This document shows, piece by piece, positions 49,286-57,406 of a DNA stretch of 64,000 nucleotides. Location: contig NZ_LMRZ01000001.1 in assembly GCF_001428305.1 (NCBI RefSeq), positions 682,289 through 746,288 of the forward strand, written 5' to 3'. The stretch is from Janibacter sp. Soil728 (GTDB lineage: Bacteria > Actinomycetota > Actinomycetes > Actinomycetales > Dermatophilaceae). Each line of letters begins with the position of its first letter. The stretch's first letter is position 1. A model generated the notes under the pieces. The model did no database searches and was not told the DNA's origin. It was given only the letters and a program-made list of their open reading frames with translations. The translations under genes and the position numbers were made by a program.

Positions 49286-50032
49286 ATGCGACCCCTCATC
49301 GAGATCCCTGCCGCCGACGGAACCGCCGAGGCGCTCGTCGCCCGGCCCGACGACGGCAACCACCCCGGAGTCCTGCTGTGCATCGACGCCCTCGGCCTGC
49401 GCCCACGCATCCAGGAGATGGCTGATCGCATCGCCTCCTGGGGCTACATCGTCCTCGCGCCCAACACGATGTACCGGTCCGGGACCGCGGCGCAGACCAC
49501 TCCGACGACTGACCTGCGCATCCCCGAGGAGCGGGCTGCCTACGGCAAGAAGGTCGGCCCCTACCTCGCCCTGCTCACGGGTGCGGCGATCGATGCCGAC
49601 CTGCCCCACTACCTGTCCGCGTTGCGCGGTCTCGACGGGGTGGGCGAGGGCCCCGTGGGCGTCACCGGCTACTGCATGGGTGCCAAGCTCGCGACCCGGT
49701 GCTCCGGGTTGGACCCGAGCGTCGCGGCCTGCGGTGGCTTCCACGGGGCCATGCTCGCGACGGACGACGACGACAGCCCGCACCTCACCCTCGGTGGCGC
49801 GCAGGCGGAGTTCGTCTACGGCCATGCCGACAACGACCAGGCGATGACCCCGCAGATGGTCGAGCGGCTCGACGCCGCGCTCGCCGAGCACGGGCTGGTC
49901 GCCCAGAGCGCCGTCTACCCGCAGGCGCCCCACGGCTACACGATGAGCGACACCTCGAGCCACCAGCAGGCCGGCGAGGACCGCCACTGGAGCGAGCTGC
50001 AGGCCCTCTTCGCCCGGACCCTCGGCGCGTGA
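49286..50032 (+). CDS. Dienelactone hydrolase family protein
   Basis: 248 residues. The nucleophile is Cys in VTGYCMGAKLATR (GxCxG elbow, about residue 131), the acid lies in FVYGHADNDQAMTP, and the His in YPQAPHGYTMSD. The PLIEIPAADGTAEALVARP N-terminus is typical of DLH-like cytosolic hydrolases. Full length. It may hydrolyse a lactone or small ester; participation in aromatic degradation is not indicated by its neighbours. It overlaps the SDR gene by 4 bases. Confidence 0.88.
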   Translation: MRPLIEIPAADGTAEALVARPDDGNHPGVLLCIDALGLRPRIQEMADRIASWGYIVLAPNTMYRSGTAAQTTPTTDLRIPEERAAYGKKVGPYLALLTGAAIDADLPHYLSALRGLDGVGEGPVGVTGYCMGAKLATRCSGLDPSVAACGGFHGAMLATDDDDSPHLTLGGAQAEFVYGHADNDQAMTPQMVERLDAALAEHGLVAQSAVYPQAPHGYTMSDTSSHQQAGEDRHWSELQALFARTLGA

Positions 50033-50802
50033 GCACCGCCCTCGTCACCGGAGCGACCGCCGGCATCGGCCGCGAGTTCGCCGTCCAGCTCGCGGCGAAG
50101 GGGGACGACCTCGTCCTCGTCGCCCGCGACAGTGCGCGCCTGGACGCGCTCGCCGCCGAGCTGGGTGGTGCTCACGGCGTCGCCGTCGAGGTGATCTGCG
50201 CGGACCTGTCCGACCGGGCCGCGCTGGAGCGGGTGGCCGAGCGGCTGCGCGACCCGGCCCGGGCCGTGGACCTGCTGGTCAACAACGCGGGCTACGGGCT
50301 GGGCTCTCCCTTCGTCGACACGACGGTCGAGGACGAGGAGCGGCTGCTCGACGTGCTGGTGCGGGCGGTCCTCGTGCTCAGCCATGCCGCGGCCGGGGCG
50401 ATGGTCGTGCGGGGGAGCGGACGGATCATCAACGTCTCGTCCGTCGCCGGGCTGCTCACGAGCGGGACCTATGCGGCATCCAAGGCCTGGGTCATCACCT
50501 TCAGCGAGTCGATCGCGGCACAGCTGGCGCCGCGCGGGGTCGGGGTCACCGCGCTGCTGCCCGGGTACGTGCGCACCGAGTTCCACGAGCGCGCGGGGAT
50601 CGACAAGAAGCGCAACGGTCCCTTCTGGCTCGACGCGCCGGACCTCGTGCGCCAGGCCCTCGCCGACTCCGAGCGTGGTCGCGTCGTGTCCGTCCCGAGC
50701 CCGCAGTACAAGGCGGTCGTCGGCGTCGTGCGCCACCTGCCCCGGGTGCTGCTGCGCAACCCGCGGGTGACCGCGCTGCACCGCAAGAACCCGAGTCCCT
50801 GA
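50029..50802 (+). CDS. SDR-family oxidoreductase
   Basis: 257 residues from GTG 50029. VTGATAGIGREFA nucleotide loop, NNAGYGLGSPF, catalytic Ser in NVSSVAGLL, and YAASKAWVITFSES. The GYGLG sequence and the C-terminal NPRVTALHRKNPSP resemble the DltE/YdfG-like classical SDRs of unknown role. Transcribed with the dienelactone hydrolase. Its end faces the hemerythrin gene across two palindromic repeats. Confidence 0.85.
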   Translation: MSTALVTGATAGIGREFAVQLAAKGDDLVLVARDSARLDALAAELGGAHGVAVEVICADLSDRAALERVAERLRDPARAVDLLVNNAGYGLGSPFVDTTVEDEERLLDVLVRAVLVLSHAAAGAMVVRGSGRIINVSSVAGLLTSGTYAASKAWVITFSESIAAQLAPRGVGVTALLPGYVRTEFHERAGIDKKRNGPFWLDAPDLVRQALADSERGRVVSVPSPQYKAVVGVVRHLPRVLLRNPRVTALHRKNPSP

Positions 50803-50820: not shown

Positions 50821-50860
50821 CCGTTCGTCTGCATTGCCCTATGGCAATGCAGACGAACGG
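50821..50860. repeat. Palindromic repeat, copy 1 (perfect 18-bp stem)
   Basis: Core GCATTGCC-CTAT-GGCAATGC at 50831-50850, extended by ten matching flanking bases on each side, giving an 18-bp perfect stem with a CTAT loop. It lies 18 bases after the SDR stop. Probable bidirectional terminator or REP-like element. Confidence 0.8.
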
Positions 50861-50867
50861 TCACCCG

Positions 50868-50895
50868 GGTTGCATTGCCATAGGGGAATGCAACC
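50868..50895. repeat. Palindromic repeat, copy 2
   Basis: Same core with the loop inverted (ATAG), a 12-bp stem with one G-G mismatch. It directly abuts the hemerythrin stop codon (50896-50898). The arms outside the core differ from those of copy 1 but still pair with each other. Confidence 0.72.
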
Positions 50896-51387
50896 TCAGA
50901 GGGGGCCGAGGGCGTCGGCTGGGTCCGCGTCGAGGTCCAGCGTCTCGAGGATCCGCAGCAGCGCCCGCTCCTCGAAGCGGAAGTGCGACTCCATGATCGC
51001 GCCGAGCCCGTCGAGGTGGGAGTGCACCCGCTCGGGTGGGTCGTCTCGGTCGAGAGCTGCCTCGAGCCCGCCGACCAGGTGACTCATCATCGAGTGGTCC
51101 TGGCTCAGCCGGCGCAGGGTGTCGGCCAGCTCGGGGTGCTCGGAGGCGATCGCGGGGAAGAGGTGACGGTCCTCCCCTTCGTGATGGCGGGTGAGGGCCG
51201 TGCAGAAACCGCGGCAGTACACCAGCAGGTCCCGGGCCACCTCGGGGTCTTCGCCGGCCGCCCGCACGAGGTCGAGCGCCTCGCGCAGGCGGGCGTGCAC
51301 CGCCCGCAGCTCGTGTGCCCAGGCCACCAGCCTGGTCTGCTCGCCCTCAGTCACGAGAGGGCGAAGGGTGGGAAACGTGCATGACAC
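50896..51387 (-). CDS. Hemerythrin (HHE) domain protein
   Basis: Non-haem di-iron helical bundle. His/Glu ligands appear as HELRAVHARLRE, LTRHHEGEDRHLFPAI, QDHSMMSHLVGGLE and ESHFRFEERALLRIL. Start uncertain: GTG 51387 (just after GGAGG, though only 2 bases away), GTG 51438 (14 bases after a TACGCT -10 box), or GTG 51354, where the conserved part begins. The length is about 163 residues as given. Role in oxygen, NO or iron handling not determined. Divergent from pyrE. Confidence 0.8.
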   Translation of the reverse strand: MSCTFPTLRPLVTEGEQTRLVAWAHELRAVHARLREALDLVRAAGEDPEVARDLLVYCRGFCTALTRHHEGEDRHLFPAIASEHPELADTLRRLSQDHSMMSHLVGGLEAALDRDDPPERVHSHLDGLGAIMESHFRFEERALLRILETLDLDADPADALGPL

Positions 51388-51476
51388 GTCCTCCTTCGAT
51401 CCGGCGCCTCCATGCCTGACACGGTCTGCCACCGGCACGCGACGCTGCGCCCAGCGTAACTCTGTCTTGGCGAAGC

Positions 51477-51584
51477 TACTTGCGGGTATGACGTGCAGTT
51501 GGCGAAGTGCTTCGGACGAGAGAGCTGATTTTCCGGGATTCTCCTACGCGTCGGGCGTGCACGTGCACGTCGTACCCGCAAGTA
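51477..51584. promoter_or_regulatory. Divergent control region with a 21-bp inverted repeat
   Basis: The left arm 51477-51497 (starting TACTTGCGGGTA) and the right arm 51564-51584 are reverse complements at 20 of 21 positions, separated by 66 bases. Each arm points to one of the divergent genes. The left arm covers the likely -35 region of the hemerythrin promoter (-10 TACGCT on the minus strand, 51458-51453). The right arm lies upstream of the pyrE -10 box. This looks like a pair of operators of one regulator, possibly joined by DNA looping; the regulator is unknown. Confidence 0.6.
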
Positions 51585-51617
51585 ACCTCTGGCCACGGGC
51601 CGGCACCGCGCGCCCCA

Positions 51618-51623
51618 TAGAAT
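51618..51623 (+). promoter_or_regulatory. -10 box of pyrE
   Basis: TAGAAT followed by 7 bases and the GTG at 51631, without ribosome site: leaderless-type start. Confidence 0.55.
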
Positions 51624-51630
51624 ACGACTC

Positions 51631-52185
51631 GTGACTGACATCGCTGCCGACCGCGCCCGCCTGCTCGAGATCGTCAAGGACAAGGCCATCGTCCACGGAC
51701 GGGTGACCCTCTCCTCCGGCGCCGAGGCCGACTACTACGTCGACCTGCGCCGCATCACGCTCGACGGCGAAGCCTCCCCGCTCGTCGGCCGGGTCATGCT
51801 GGACCTCGTCGCGGACCTCGACTTCGACGCCGTGGGCGGGCTGACGCTGGGTGCCGACCCCGTCGCCACCTCCATGCTCCACGCCACCGCGGCGAAGGGG
51901 GAGCGGCTGGACGCCTTCGTGGTGCGCAAGTCCGGCAAGGCCCACGGCCTGCAGCAGCGCATCGAGGGTCCGTCGATCAAGGGCCGTCGTGTCCTGATCG
52001 TCGAGGACACCTCCACGACGGGCAACTCGCCGCTCGAGGCGGCCACCGCCGCCCGCGAGGCGGGTGCCGAGGTCGTCGCCGTCGCGACGATCGCCGACCG
52101 GGCGACCGGTGCCGCCGACAAGTTCGCCGAGGCCGGTCTGGAGTACCGCCACGTCTTCGGGCTCGAGGAGCTCGGGCTCGCCTGA
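51631..52185 (+). CDS. pyrE: Orotate phosphoribosyltransferase
   Basis: Transfers ribose-5-phosphate from PRPP to orotate in pyrimidine synthesis. 184 residues from GTG 51631. RVTLSSGAEADYYVDLRRITLDG (orotate strand), AFVVRKSGKAHGLQQRIEG and the PRPP loop RVLIVEDTSTTGNSPLEAA are intact. The length matches actinobacterial PyrE. It stands alone, not in a pyr operon. Confidence 0.95.
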   Translation: MTDIAADRARLLEIVKDKAIVHGRVTLSSGAEADYYVDLRRITLDGEASPLVGRVMLDLVADLDFDAVGGLTLGADPVATSMLHATAAKGERLDAFVVRKSGKAHGLQQRIEGPSIKGRRVLIVEDTSTTGNSPLEAATAAREAGAEVVAVATIADRATGAADKFAEAGLEYRHVFGLEELGLA

Positions 52186-52210
52186 GGGCCTCCACGGCAA
52201 CCGGTTTAAG

Positions 52211-52224
52211 TTAGGCTCTCCTAA
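52211..52224 (+). promoter_or_regulatory. Iron box (DtxR/IdeR-type operator)
   Basis: TTAGG-CTCT-CCTAA, a perfect core palindrome of the DtxR/IdeR iron box, 29 bases before the siderophore-interacting protein gene. The full 19-bp consensus is only partly matched outside the core. Predicts repression when iron is sufficient. Confidence 0.75.
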
Positions 52225-52253
52225 GTTCAGCCGTCCCCGGTGTTAGGAGAGCC

Positions 52254-53117
52254 ATGAAGATCGCCGAGCTCAAGGACCGCGTGGTCCTGGGTGCCGCCCG
52301 TGTCTACGCCCGTCGGACGATGGCCGACTACGCCGAGCGGACGGAGGAGTCGCAGTTCGAGGTCACGGTCGCCCGGGTCGTCGAGCTCAACCCGGTGATG
52401 CGACGAATCACCTTGGCAGCCCCCGAGATCCGCGACTACTCGCTGCTCGGCCCTGACGAGTTCTTCGGCCTGCTCATGCCGGGCGCCGACGGCCACCTGC
52501 ACCTGCCTGACCCGGGGCGCAGCAATGTCCGTGCGGCCATCAGCGAGATGTCCGAGGACGAGCAGCCCGGCCTGCGGTGGTACACGATCCGCAGCATCCG
52601 CCGGCGCGAAGGGGAGGTCGACGTCGACATCGTGACCCACGGCGACTCCGGTCCGGGGTCGGCATGGGCGACGTCCGCGCAGGTGGGCGATGTCGCCGGG
52701 TTCCGCTCCGGGGGAGCGCTGTACTCCAGCTTCGACCAGCCGCGTCAGCTCCTCGTCGCCGACGAGACGGCCCTGCCCGCGCTGCTGGCGATCCTGGAGG
52801 AGCGGGACCGCCGTGGCCTGCCCGGCCTCGGCGCGGGCATCGAGGCACACGTCGAGGTCCCCTCGTCGAGCGTGCTCGACGGCATGGAGATGCCGTCCGA
52901 CGTCGCCGTCCACCTGCGAGGCTCCGCCGCGCCGGGCACGGCAGTCCTCGCGGCCCTCGTCGACTCGCCCGGCTCGAGCGCCGACCTGGACTACGCCTGG
53001 CTCTGCGGCGAGTCCGGGCTGGCGACCTCCCTTCGTCGCCACCTCGTGCAGCAGGGCACGGACAAGCGGCAGATCACCTTCTCCGGCTACTGGAAGCTGG
53101 GCGCCGCACGCGGCTGA
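52254..53117 (+). CDS. Siderophore-interacting protein (FAD ferric reductase family)
   Basis: 287 residues from ATG 52254, ribosome site TAGGAGA. The N-terminal FAD domain (FEVTVARVVELNPVMRRITLAAPE ... RWYTIRSIRR with the RxYT-type flavin motif and VTHGDSGPGSAWA) is followed by the SIP C-terminal NAD(P)H domain (LLVADETALPALLAILE, DYAWLCGESGLATSLRRHLV, ITFSGYWKLGAAR). It releases iron from ferri-siderophores by reduction in the cytosol. The iron box upstream agrees. Confidence 0.92.
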   Translation: MKIAELKDRVVLGAARVYARRTMADYAERTEESQFEVTVARVVELNPVMRRITLAAPEIRDYSLLGPDEFFGLLMPGADGHLHLPDPGRSNVRAAISEMSEDEQPGLRWYTIRSIRRREGEVDVDIVTHGDSGPGSAWATSAQVGDVAGFRSGGALYSSFDQPRQLLVADETALPALLAILEERDRRGLPGLGAGIEAHVEVPSSSVLDGMEMPSDVAVHLRGSAAPGTAVLAALVDSPGSSADLDYAWLCGESGLATSLRRHLVQQGTDKRQITFSGYWKLGAARG

Positions 53118-53129
53118 CCGCCGGCCGGA

Positions 53130-53135
53130 TAGCGT
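53130..53135 (+). promoter_or_regulatory. -10 box of the HAD hydrolase gene
   Basis: TAGCGT, 7 bases before the ATG at 53143, no ribosome site. Confidence 0.45.
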
Positions 53136-53142
53136 GATCCAC

Positions 53143-53934
53143 ATGGAGCCGCACCTCGTTGCCCTGGATGTCGACGGCACGATCCTGACCCACGACGGCG
53201 AGCTGCGAGAGGCCACCCGCGACGCGATCCGCGCGGTCGCCGACGCCGGCCACCAGATCGTCATCTCGACCGGGCGCTCGGTCGTCGCCACGACACCCGT
53301 CCTGGAGATGCTCGACCTCTCCCACGGGTGGGCCGTCTGCTCCAACGGTGCTGTGACGCTCGAGCTGGATCCCGCTGAGCCGCAGGGCTATCGGATCGCC
53401 GAGACGGTCACCTTCGACCCCCGCGAGGCGCTCACCCTCGTGATGGAGCACGCCCCCCACATCCTCGTCGCGGTCGAGGAGGTCGGGGTCGGCTTCAAGG
53501 TCGCTCGGCCCTACCCCGAGGGCGTGCTGATGGGCGAGCAGGTCGTCGTCCCCTTCGAGCAGCTCGTCGACACACCGACCACCCGCGTGTCCTTCCACGA
53601 CCCCGAGGGCGCGAGCGAGGACTTCCTCGACCTCGTCGAGCGGATCGGTCTGCACGGGGTGAGCTACGCGGTCGGGTACACCGCCTGGCTGGACCTGGCC
53701 CCCGAGGGCGTGTCCAAGGGTTCGGCGCTGGAGCTGGTGCGCCGCCGACTCGGCATCGAGCCGCACCTGACCTTCGCGGCCGGTGACCAGCGCAACGACC
53801 TGGAGATGCTGCGCTGGGCTGCTCGAGGGGTCGCGATGGGCGATGCTCCGCCCGAGGTCGTCGCCGCGGCGGACGAGCAGACCGGCACGGTCTACGAGGA
53901 CGGCCTCGCGGCTGCCCTCCGCCGCTTGTTCTAG
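53143..53934 (+). CDS. HAD-superfamily (Cof-type) phosphatase
   Basis: 263 residues from ATG 53143. HAD motif I ALDVDGTIL, motif II ISTGRS, the Lys of motif III in VSKGSALELV and motif IV AAGDQRNDLEML; the large C2 cap lies between about residues 80 and 185. Cof-type enzymes dephosphorylate sugar phosphates, FMN or PLP. The next gene begins immediately after the stop. Confidence 0.9.
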   Translation: MEPHLVALDVDGTILTHDGELREATRDAIRAVADAGHQIVISTGRSVVATTPVLEMLDLSHGWAVCSNGAVTLELDPAEPQGYRIAETVTFDPREALTLVMEHAPHILVAVEEVGVGFKVARPYPEGVLMGEQVVVPFEQLVDTPTTRVSFHDPEGASEDFLDLVERIGLHGVSYAVGYTAWLDLAPEGVSKGSALELVRRRLGIEPHLTFAAGDQRNDLEMLRWAARGVAMGDAPPEVVAAADEQTGTVYEDGLAAALRRLF

Positions 53935-54756
53935 GTGCAGGATGGGGTCGTGACCCGCGCCCCTGATCTTGATGACGCCCGCGACGCCGCCCGCAAGGTC
54001 GGCGACCACCCTGCCCTCGAGGCCTTGGCGCGGATCGGGTTCGTCGTCTCCGGACTCCTGCACGTCGTGCTCGGCTGGACCGCCGGGCGACTGGGCTGGG
54101 GCGGCGGTGGTCAGGCCGACCAGTCCGGCGCTCTCTCCGCGCTCGCGAGCAACCCCGCCGGCACGATCCTCATGTGGGTCATCGTCATCGGGCTCGCGGC
54201 GCTCGTCCTGTGGCAGGTGACGGTGGCGGTCGCGCCGGGCTTCGGCGATGGTGCCTTTGATCGGATCAAGGCGCTGGGCAAGGCCGCCGTCTACGCCGCG
54301 CTGGCGTACACGGCCTCGACCTTTGCCATGGGCTCCGGCTCCTCGTCCTCGTCCGAGCAGTCCTCGCAGGACCTGACGGCGACACTCATGCAGGCGCCGG
54401 CCGGGCAGGTCCTCGTCGGCGCGGTCGGCGTCGCGATCATCGCCGTCGGCGGGTACCACGTGTACAAGGGTGTGACCCGCAAGTTCCTCGACGACCTCGA
54501 GCAGGACCCGGGCACCTGGGCGACCCGCTCGGGCACGATCGGCTACCCGGCCAAGGGAGCGGTCCTCGCCCTCGTCGGCGTCTTCTTCGTCATCGCTGCC
54601 GTGCAGCACCAGTCGTCCGAGGCATCCGGTCTCGACGGCGCACTCAAGAGCCTGCGCGACCAGCCCTTCGGCCCGTACCTGCTCACCGCCGTCGCGGTGG
54701 GCCTGGTGGCCTTCGGCCTGTACTGCTTCGCCAGGGCACGCCACCAGCGGATCTGA
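53935..54756 (+). CDS. DUF1206 integral membrane protein
   Basis: 273 residues if GTG 53935 is used; GTG 53950, preceded by GGATGGGG, is an equally good start. Three repeated units of two membrane helices each: ALARIGFVVSGLLHVVLGW, then ALGKAAVYAALAYTASTF, then TIGYPAKGAVLALVGVFFV. The repeated layout is the DUF1206 pattern. Function unknown. Directly adjoins the HAD gene, so co-transcription is likely. Confidence 0.85.
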   Translation: MQDGVVTRAPDLDDARDAARKVGDHPALEALARIGFVVSGLLHVVLGWTAGRLGWGGGGQADQSGALSALASNPAGTILMWVIVIGLAALVLWQVTVAVAPGFGDGAFDRIKALGKAAVYAALAYTASTFAMGSGSSSSSEQSSQDLTATLMQAPAGQVLVGAVGVAIIAVGGYHVYKGVTRKFLDDLEQDPGTWATRSGTIGYPAKGAVLALVGVFFVIAAVQHQSSEASGLDGALKSLRDQPFGPYLLTAVAVGLVAFGLYCFARARHQRI

Positions 54757-54758
54757 GC

Positions 54759-54802
54759 GCTCCCCTTCGTCAGCAAACCGGTTGCCGGGGCGAAGGGAGA
54801 GC
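54759..54802 (+). terminator. Probable terminator after the DUF1206 gene
   Basis: CCCTTCG (54763-54769) pairs with CGAAGGG (54791-54797), extended outward with one bulge, just after the stop codon. The remaining 54803-54978 before the ABC-F gene holds no recognisable gene; it may be an untranslated leader. Confidence 0.5.
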
Positions 54803-54978
54803 CCCTAGCCTTGTCGGGTCCGACCGGTCGGTGACAGCGCCCGGTCCCCTCGACCTCGAAGGTGATGACCCGCTCGATGCGGCACCAGATCTCCCGCGAC
54901 TGAAGAGCGCGTCCGACCGCGGCCCACGCACCGCGAGTCCCGTCGGCGTGCGCACGCAGCGACGGTACGGAGATCTCC

Positions 54979-56643
54979 ATGTCAGCACCCACACCGGGGG
55001 CGGACGCCCTCGTCACCCTCACCCACGTCACCCTCGACTGGCCCGACGGCACCCGTGCCCTCGATGACGTCAGCGGGTCCTTCGGTCACGGCCGAACTGG
55101 CCTCGTCGGCCGCAACGGCTCGGGCAAGACCACCCTGCTGCGGCTGATCACGGGCGAGCTGACCCCGATCGACGGGACGCTCCACGTCAGCGGCGCCGTC
55201 GCCACGCTCCCGCAGCAGCTGGGACTCGACACGCAGCGCACGGTCGCGCAGGCGTTGGGCGTCGCGCCGGCCCTCGCAGCCATCGCGGCGATCGAGGCCG
55301 GCTCGATCGACCAGGCGGACTTCGATGCGGCAGAAGGCCGCTGGGGCATCGAGGCCGAGGCGCTCTCGACCCTGACCACCCTGGGGCTCGGTGACGACGC
55401 AGACCTTCTCGACCGGCCGCTCGGCACCCTGTCGGGCGGCGAGGTCGTCACCGTGGGGCTCGCCGCGCTCCAGCTGCAGCGAGCCGACATCGCGCTGCTC
55501 GACGAGCCGACCAACAACCTCGACAGAGCAGCCCGCACGCGTCTGCTCGAGGCGATCGACGCGTGGCCGACCGGCCGCTCGCTCGTCGTGGTCAGTCACG
55601 ACACCGACCTGCTCGAGCACGTCGACCGCATCGTCGAGGTGCACGGTCACGAGCTGCGCGGCTTCGACGGGCCGTGGTCGGTGTACCGCGCGGCGATCGA
55701 GGCAGAGCAGCAGGCGGCCGCCGATGCCGTCCGGGCCGCAGAGCAGGAGGTGCGTCGGCAGAAGCGTGACCGCGTCGAGGCGGAGCTCAAGCTGGCCGGG
55801 CGCAAGCGGATCGCCGATCGCGATCAGGCGAGCAAGCGGGCGCCCAAGATCGTCATGAACACCTGGGCCATGAAGGCAGAGAAGTCAGCCGCCAAGCACC
55901 GCCACCTCCACGACGATCGGCTCGATCGGGCCCGCACCTCCCTCACCGAGGCCGAAGGGATGGTCCGCGAGGACCGCTCGGTGCGCATCGAGCTGCCCGG
56001 CACGCAGGTGCCGGCCGGCCGGACGGTGCTGGAGCTACGGGAGGGGGAGGACCTCCCCCTTCGAGGCTCGGCCGTGGACGGCCTCACACCTCAGGACGGC
56101 GCCTTCGTCGTGCAGGGGCCGGAGCGGATCGCGCTGTCCGGCGCCAACGGTGCCGGCAAGACGACGCTGCTGCGCGAGGTCCTCGGGCTGCCCACGGCGG
56201 TGGCACCGGCCGCGCGGCTCGTCCGAAGGATCGACGAGGTCGGCCATCTGCCGCAGCGGATCGAGCTGGACGCCGAGCGGAGTGTCCTCGAGGCCGTCCG
56301 AGCGGCCGCGCCCACGGTGCCGCCGCAGCAGGTCCGGGCGTCTTTGGCGCGCTTCCTCTTCCGGGGCGCGCTCGCCGAGCGGTCCGTCGCGGGGCTGTCG
56401 GGTGGGGAGCGCTTCCGCGTCGCCCTGGCCAGCGTGCTGCTCGCGGACCCGGCGCCGCACCTGATCGTCCTGGACGAACCGACCAACAGCCTCGACGTCG
56501 ACAGCGTCGACCAGCTCGTCGACGCGCTGGCCGCCTACCGCGGGGCGCTGCTCGTGGTCAGTCACGACGAGGGCTTCCTCGAGCGGATCGGCATCACCCG
56601 CCGCTGGGAGATCCGCGGCGGCCACCTTCGTGCATTGCCCTAG
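54979..56643 (+). CDS. ABC-F family ATPase
   Basis: 554 residues from ATG 54979. Two ABC domains without membrane segments: Walker A1 GRNGSGKTTL, LSGGEVVTVGLA, LLDEPTNNLD; a linker rich in charged residues (about 235-330); Walker A2 GANGAGKTTLL, LSGGERFRVALA, VLDEPTNSLD. ABC-F proteins act on the ribosome as translation factors or antibiotic-protection proteins. An untranslated gap of about 200 bases precedes it, where attenuation could act, but no leader peptide is evident. The last codons and the stop (ALP-stop) lie inside a palindromic repeat. Confidence 0.9.
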   Translation: MSAPTPGADALVTLTHVTLDWPDGTRALDDVSGSFGHGRTGLVGRNGSGKTTLLRLITGELTPIDGTLHVSGAVATLPQQLGLDTQRTVAQALGVAPALAAIAAIEAGSIDQADFDAAEGRWGIEAEALSTLTTLGLGDDADLLDRPLGTLSGGEVVTVGLAALQLQRADIALLDEPTNNLDRAARTRLLEAIDAWPTGRSLVVVSHDTDLLEHVDRIVEVHGHELRGFDGPWSVYRAAIEAEQQAAADAVRAAEQEVRRQKRDRVEAELKLAGRKRIADRDQASKRAPKIVMNTWAMKAEKSAAKHRHLHDDRLDRARTSLTEAEGMVREDRSVRIELPGTQVPAGRTVLELREGEDLPLRGSAVDGLTPQDGAFVVQGPERIALSGANGAGKTTLLREVLGLPTAVAPAARLVRRIDEVGHLPQRIELDAERSVLEAVRAAAPTVPPQQVRASLARFLFRGALAERSVAGLSGGERFRVALASVLLADPAPHLIVLDEPTNSLDVDSVDQLVDALAAYRGALLVVSHDEGFLERIGITRRWEIRGGHLRALP

Positions 56644-56713
56644 GGCAATGCCCGTCAACCCTGCATTGCCCTATGGCAATGTCCGTCGAAGTTGCATTGC
56701 CCTATGGCAATGC
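56632..56713. repeat. Three palindromic repeats at a convergent gene junction
   Basis: Copies at 56632-56651 (loop CTAG), 56663-56682 (last base T) and 56694-56713 (perfect core), starting 31 bases apart each time. The first copy contains the ABC-F stop codon (TAG 56641-56643). The third contains that of the opposite PAP2 gene (56702-56704, minus strand). Both proteins therefore end in Ala-Leu-Pro. Confidence 0.82.
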
Positions 56714-57406
56714 GTGGTCGTGGTCCTGGTCCTGGGGGCTCGCGGGCCGGGACGAAGGGAGCGACGAAGGGAGGACCACCAGGCCGAGGAGGGCGATGGC
56801 GGCGCCGAGCACCAGCCCCATCACGACGTCGCTGATGTTGTGCACACCGAGCAGGATCCGGTCGGCGGCGGTCACGCCGGCGCCGAGCAGGGCGAGGACC
56901 GTTGCGCCCCAGCGCATCCACGCAGATCGAATGACCTGCACCAGCGCGATGACCAGCACCGTGCCGACCGCGATGTTGGTCGCGTGACCGCTCGGGTAGG
57001 ACCAGCCGCCGACCTCGACGACCGCGTCGAGGGGGCGGGGACGCTCGACGAGCAGCTTGCACCCGACGCCGAGCCCCCAGCCGGCGAGGCCGATGGCAAC
57101 GGTGACGACGGCGGCACGCGCGGTGATGCGGCGGCGCACGGCAAGCACCCCGCCGAGGAGCGCGACGACGGGGTAGACGAACCACGGCCCGCTGAGCACG
57201 GCCCAGAGCACGGCCGCGTCGTGCCAGCGCGGGTGGCCGGCGAGCGCGGCGATGCCGTGGGTGACGCCCCAGGCGTCGACCTCGCGGACCGCGGAGGAGG
57301 GGATCAGCAGCCACTCACCGAGTGCCGCGACGGCCAGCGTGGCCGCCACCATGAGCAGCGCTGCCGACACGATTCGCAGGAGAGAGACGGGTCGGTCTGC
57401 AGGCAT
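56702..57406 (-). CDS. PAP2-superfamily membrane phosphatase
   Basis: 234 residues from ATG 57406; ATG 57424, six codons upstream, is an alternative. About six membrane helices. Phosphatase motifs: KLLVERPRP (C1, KxxxxxxRP), YPSGHATN (C2, PSGH) and RILLGVHNISDVVMG (C3, SRxxxxxHxxxD-like with the catalytic His). It dephosphorylates lipid phosphates such as undecaprenyl diphosphate or phosphatidic acid at the outer membrane face. The C-terminus, HDHALP, is encoded by the repeat. Confidence 0.88.
   Translation of the reverse strand: MPADRPVSLLRIVSAALLMVAATLAVAALGEWLLIPSSAVREVDAWGVTHGIAALAGHPRWHDAAVLWAVLSGPWFVYPVVALLGGVLAVRRRITARAAVVTVAIGLAGWGLGVGCKLLVERPRPLDAVVEVGGWSYPSGHATNIAVGTVLVIALVQVIRSAWMRWGATVLALLGAGVTAADRILLGVHNISDVVMGLVLGAAIALLGLVVLPSSLPSSRPASPQDQDHDHALP

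Follow-up and report, generated by a model that had tools for sequence, protein, structure and literature searches.

Why do two pairs of convergent genes within one stretch of Janibacter DNA end in or beside the same short near-palindrome? The window, a stretch of 64,000 nucleotides (C1:682289-746288 of the 3.64-Mb genome of a Janibacter sp., labelled G000), contains five copies of a 20-bp unit in two clusters, each between convergent genes, against 0.24 copies expected by chance. The number, grouping and coordinates of the copies given by a sequence-only reading of this DNA were confirmed. Cluster 1 lies between an SDR gene on the plus strand (50029..50802), whose stop is 28 bp ahead of copy 1, and a hemerythrin-like gene on the minus strand (50896..51354), whose stop is 4 bp beyond copy 2. 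Full-length copy 1 (50821..50860) has the core GCATTGCC-CTAT-GGCAATGC at 50831-50850, enclosed by the long arms of the family (ccgttcgtct and agacgaacgg), and copy 2 (50868..50895; core GCATTGCC-ATAG-GGGAATGC at 50872-50891), located 41 bp from copy 1, is of the frequent asymmetric type, which has a single G.G/C.C mismatch. Cluster 2 consists of copy 3 (56632..56651, GCATTGCC-CTAG-GGCAATGC), copy 4 (56663..56682, GCATTGCC-CTAT-GGCAATGT; 31 bp past copy 3) and copy 5 (56694..56713, GCATTGCC-CTAT-GGCAATGC; 31 bp past copy 4). The plus-strand ABC-F ATPase gene (54979..56643), an ORF with orthologues in the genus, stops at the TAG of copy 3 (56641-56643), and the minus-strand gene for a PAP2-type phosphatase (56702..57370, an ORF supported by gene calling and named after the earlier reading) stops at the TAG of copy 5 (56702-56704), both proteins ending in Ala-Leu-Pro as had been read.

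A genome-wide count, which the earlier reading had proposed as a check, returned 149 copies in G000 when up to two mismatches were allowed, with exact arms in 92; the loop was CTAT or ATAG in 60 exact copies and CTAG in 31. At least 16 gene ends in the sampled G000 DNA use the TAG of the core (GCA TTG CCN TAG), giving Ala-Leu-Pro. The perfect 18-bp stem of copy 1 (50821-50838 paired with 50843-50860) was verified. Its outer arms had been regarded as unlike those of the other copies; however, the same arm was found at other G000 loci, and its long form 'agacgaacggtc' borders 35 of the 123 copies sampled, at one end or at both. A few copies have unique arms that still pair, as at L123:16359 (approximately 16 bp) and L112:4006, where L-numbers denote repeat-bearing loci. 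Outer pairing over whole clusters was at chance level in G000 (3 vs 2.5 in shuffles) and in modest excess in J. indicus (7 vs 1.7, shuffle maximum 6), and the commonest 4-mers adjoining the core, GTCT (42/236) and ACCT (38/236), often run on as paired arms. Approximately 25 of these 123 copies had the asymmetric form GCATTCCC...GGCAATGC (mixed GCATTCCC/GCATTGCC), which leaves one mismatch. The double-C form, which restores the stem, was found in none of the 123, and since approximately 1.4 were expected by chance, its lack is by itself a weak argument against selection for the hairpin only. The 'agacgaacggtc' arms in G000 and a 'ctcgacgtcaaga' linker in J. indicus are common to dispersed loci, and units are duplicated in tandem (four 44-bp units in L148 and four 30-bp units in L114), indicating copying.

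Sixteen Janibacter genomes (G000-G015) were searched with the broad frame GCA-N3-SC-NTAN-GS-N3-TGC, and 14 of them carried their own version of it in 8-177 copies (G007, 177; G012, 170; G000, 144; G009, 128; G006, 115; G008, 88; G004, 72; G013, 66; G015, 48; G011, 28; G002, 16; G014, 11; G001, 9; G010, 8), the counts in G003 (2) and G005 (1) being near background. Each of 172 genomes from 52 other genera of the family had 0-4 frame copies, as in a reversed-pattern control. Patchy presence and absence within the genus was rejected: the search with exact arms had left seven genomes apparently empty, but most of these carry another spelling, so the apparent gaps came from the search pattern. The spellings differ in the loop, CTAT/CTAG in G000 and CTAC/GTAG in G006, and in the arms, with GCARRACC in G009, GCATTTCC in G004, GCACGACC-TTAA-GGAGATGC in G012 and G015, and GCAACTGC-NTAG-GCTCYTGC in G007 and G013. 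Two homogeneous families occur together in G009 and in G012, and G000 carries two copies of the G012 type at the start of CydD. The unit is asymmetric in nearly every copy of G012 and G015, and copies in G008 as a rule have one mismatched base; what is kept is therefore not a perfect palindrome. The proposal of selection for the hairpin rather than the sequence was therefore unsupported, and hairpin-only selection was rejected on these asymmetric units and on the single-C form, seen 25 times without a double-C partner. In Janibacter anophelis, mixed arrays at L076, L080, L085, L093 and L100 pass from the core GCATTGCC-NTAN-GGCAATGC to GCATTTCC-CCGG-GGAAATGC, and the 22-bp linker (..cttgacgtcaaga..) stays similar across the change of core.

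Placement relative to genes was analyzed with a purpose-written gene caller over one unbroken stretch of 210-240 kb from each of G000, G012, G009 and G006. Copies occupied 24 of 131 convergent, 20 of 571 codirectional and 4 of 133 divergent junctions (P value, 9e-9), and at codirectional junctions they lay a median of approximately 22 nt from the upstream stop versus approximately 69 nt from the downstream start. Restriction to convergent gene ends, as had been claimed, is thus true of the window and not of the genome, where copies are also found at codirectional junctions, at a few divergent ones and in frame within the CydC, CydD and HrpB genes; copies within genes had been named beforehand as an observation against the claim, and that refuting condition was borne out in part. 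The CydC linker of G000 contains an in-frame array encoding (HSPMAMQED)x4. In the cydD/cydC region (138173-141627 of the joined G000 stretch; G000:C1 ~784.9-788.3 kb), arrays encode peptide repeats in the linkers of CydC and CydD, the peptide being HSPMAMQED in G000, HDLKEMR in G012 and QNPRVLQ in G009. Another tandem repeat, 'ccctgaggaggccgctcgcgccgtcctgat' / 'ccgtgaggaggtcgcg', was observed at the G000_28 convergent end in the joined G000 stretch and in the CydD linker of G012. Two further roles were considered and dropped. As markers of chromosome domains, the forward-strand copies listed in the complete G012 genome were spread with gaps and gave no clear ori/ter pattern; as rearrangement breakpoints, repeats were in pooled excess at broken junctions (16 of 73) over conserved ones (77 of 1178), but one locus supplied most of that excess.

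The distances between neighboring copies were counted with each linker sequence used once, giving 69 distinct linkers. Spacings fell at 29-33 bp (29), 34-39 bp (2), 40-46 bp (32), 47-50 bp (0), 51-55 bp (3) and 63 bp (1), with a resultant of 0.75 near a period of 10.5-11, compared with at most 0.40 in uniform controls, and the usual distance of 30-32 or 40-46 bp is kept even where the linkers are unrelated. In-gene arrays use only 30 or 42 bp, each a multiple of three, and the intergenic arrays of G012 use 30-32 bp, mostly 31 or 32. Such a pattern would arise if the sites faced the same side of the helix, or if a fixed pair unit had picked up small indels, and the signal could come in large part from the pair unit rather than from phasing by a protein. 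A putative sequence-specific DNA-binding protein, dimeric on the 20-bp dyad and cooperative on one helix face, would account for the phasing across unrelated linkers and for in-gene arrays that hold reading frame and phase together. It would act at transcription-unit ends as a roadblock, an insulator or a chromosome organizer, and its sites would co-evolve with its specificity, so that conserved positions would be spelled alike within a species and differently between species.

Positions are indeed shared between species more often than chance allows. Orthologous junction pairs were co-occupied in 22 of 590 cases versus 5.5 expected (maximum of 15 in 5000 shuffles), and with length bins in 22 versus 7.4 expected (maximum 19). 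Both window clusters are occupied in G012, G009 and G006, each with its own spelling, and both are empty in G003 and G010. At the ABC-F/PAP2 junction, G006 has GCATTGCC-GTAG, G012 has four copies of GCACGACC-TTAA-GGAGATGC, G009 has two of GCARGACC-CTAG-GGTTTTGC and G002 has one of GCATCTCC-CTAA-GGAGATGC; four copies of GCAACTGC-TTAG-GCTCTTGC at 32-bp spacing in G007 lie downstream of a different gene. The CydC linker is occupied in 4/4 species. The junction pair G000_193/G012_207 shares a conventional terminator without a single base change, and the arrays behind it differ in family, copy number and spacing; at a well-aligned site the flanks align and the whole array (copy number, linkers and spacing) differs, indicating that the sites persist and that families replace one another there an entire array at a time. 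In a small number of cases an old copy has one spelling in both species (G000_2/G012_44 and G009_81/G006_73). Some empty orthologous junctions measure 7-27 bp and are hairpin-free; no clean pair of empty site and target duplication was found, the array flanks being too diverged for boundaries to be drawn. Most sister species carry an element of this kind, in many cases at corresponding positions but differently spelled. Conserved positions with changed spelling, a conserved asymmetry and a constant outer frame around a variable triplet would all suit the binding protein described above, but arms and linkers common to dispersed loci need copying, two homogeneous families coexist within single genomes and whole arrays change beyond the bases of the site; we regard this reading as rather unlikely.

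The repeats had also been read as bidirectional terminators. If selected intrinsic terminators happened to have their stem standardized in each species, like the paired uptake sequences of Neisseria and Haemophilus, the 3' location and the nearby stops would be expected. Both strands of the arrays gave strong folds (mean z -6.0 to -8.6 in G000, G006, G009 and G012), and a few copies cap long unique stems. Another strong hairpin was present at 4 of 23 repeat-bearing convergent junctions versus 38 of 58 comparison junctions, a confounded count that is suggestive at most because arrays fill the junction space (median 31 nt left). Against this explanation, single units of G000 and G006 fold at -11 to -13 kcal/mol but those of G012 and G015 at only -1.5 to -4.5 kcal/mol (their arrays do fold), and the mismatch of G008 is conserved. 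Inspection of all window copies and of copy flanks revealed no terminator-like site with a T-tract; copies lie inside cydC, cydD and hrpB; one array stands directly behind the conserved conventional hairpin of G000_193/G012_207; and some of the empty orthologous junctions have no hairpin. Two-sided termination is thus possible at many sites and does not hold as a general rule, and as an account of the whole set it is unlikely. A terminator-like effect at many gene ends is compatible with dispersed elements, binding sites and terminators alike. In the genus, conventional terminator-like hairpins have a second recurring motif, CGAAGGGG...CCCCTTCG, as their stem; it often lies beside repeats, with examples at the G012_194 and G012_207 junctions and in many repeat flanks.

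In Neisseria, paired uptake sequences lie in terminators, one sequence standardizing many stems. Passages of PMC5217627 describe such paired uptake sequences in terminators of Haemophilus, where one sequence likewise standardizes many stems. The Janibacter repeats resemble both in placing one sequence in many gene-end stems, but their half-sites do not stand alone and the T-tract is absent. That they are themselves DNA uptake sequences, arranged as inverted pairs in terminators, is extremely improbable: the likeness (paired, inverted, at gene ends) is superficial, and isolated GCATTGCC half-sites were not in excess (6 vs 4.4 expected in 210 kb), a count that refutes a Neisseria-like uptake system.

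What moves the repeats was sought among known enzymes. A RAYT or Y1 transposase (PF01797) was found in 0 of 16 Janibacter genomes, whereas five control genomes (E. coli and four others) were positive. RAYT-driven mobility, for which the earlier reading had suggested a search, is thereby refuted for G000 and for the genus, and no mobilizer was identified by this Y1 search. A REase_MTES_1575-like gene, so labelled from a weak Pfam match of the G009 homologue below the cut-off, lies between arrays at 152152-153099 of the joined G000 stretch (G000:C1 ~798.9-799.8 kb), in a region spanning 150954-155098 of that stretch (G000:C1 ~797.7-801.8 kb; L115). In four species it has arrays within 24-90 bp, at one end of the gene or at both. 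The order and orientation of its neighbors, a HisC-like aminotransferase and a small membrane protein, vary between species, and no other of the 1352 genes sampled is so flanked. It may be a source gene comparable to that of a REPtron, or its flanking arrays may be coincidental.

The description of the repeats as REP-like has held: they are short, high-copy near-palindromes in pairs and arrays on the 3' side of genes, with the core and parts of the arms and linkers shared across loci. We consider it about an even chance that they form a Janibacter-specific superfamily of REP/BIME-like dispersed elements moved by a non-RAYT enzyme. The unit would be the 20-bp near-palindrome, which recurs in pairs and arrays at distances of three or four helical turns, or in rare cases five or six. 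Copies may be spread, and existing ones overwritten, by a recombinase other than a RAYT or by a nuclease-dependent copying process, either of which would recognize the phased pair, and copies would build up where they are harmless, that is, at convergent ends, operon ends and inter-domain linkers. The NTAG center would supply an in-frame stop, making insertion at a gene end tolerable, and arrays at many gene ends may subsequently function as hairpins in the transcripts from either side, through termination or 3'-end protection. Because co-occupancy exceeds that of random transposition, dispersal of this kind needs targeting to resident copies or site selection. More tentatively, a set of conserved chromosomal positions across the genus, mainly at transcription-unit ends, may be held by phased arrays of the 20-bp site, whose outer frame is fixed and whose specific letters are rewritten in concert, at approximately a hundred loci per species, by a putative protein acting in trans, either a binder or a recombinase, of a type not so far known from REP-like DNA.

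A search of a literature collection returned nothing on such repeats in Janibacter. The available parts of a statistical scan (PMC5217627) describe an unexplained intergenic motif pair of A. ebreus, GCTTAT(N)5AAGCG, whose 114 copies include 44 at convergent, 4 at divergent and 59 at co-oriented genes. Both motifs are palindromic, have approximately 100 copies and show a very similar orientation bias; unlike here, those parts report no comparative positions, phasing or families. REP/BIME sequences of the GTAG and CGTC super-families (Di Nocera et al, 2013; PMC3733652) are imperfect palindromes of 20-40 bp, high in copy number and often dimeric, whose species-specific families lie mostly behind unidirectional or convergent genes, tens of bp from the stop, with some copies in genes; CGTC REPs have no dedicated transposase, and the text does not mention Actinobacteria. 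In E. coli REPtrons (RAYT/TnpA-REP; PMC8266576), a bulge in the REP stem is required for TnpA-REP activity, and the conserved stem mismatch in Janibacter is alike, although a TnpA-REP-like gene is present in 0 of 16 genomes. RAYT transposases explain the REP-like repeats of Proteobacteria, the CGTC kind lacking a known mobilizer; Janibacter, a single actinobacterial genus, adds a set that is recent, diverse and free of RAYTs, in which the frame is fixed, the spacing is phased with the helix and conserved positions are refilled by different families. As its 16 genomes allow a change of spelling to be matched to the change of one protein, the question of who moves or reads REPs that lack a RAYT becomes testable. 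The Janibacter repeats share with REP/BIME the short imperfect palindrome, high copy number, mainly intergenic and biased location, pairs and in-gene copies, and differ in the fixed frame refilled per species at the same positions, in the helix-phased pair spacing, and in lacking both a RAYT and the unpaired GTAG or CGTC end tag. By defining features they are neither GTAG nor CGTC REPs; they are organized and distributed like one.
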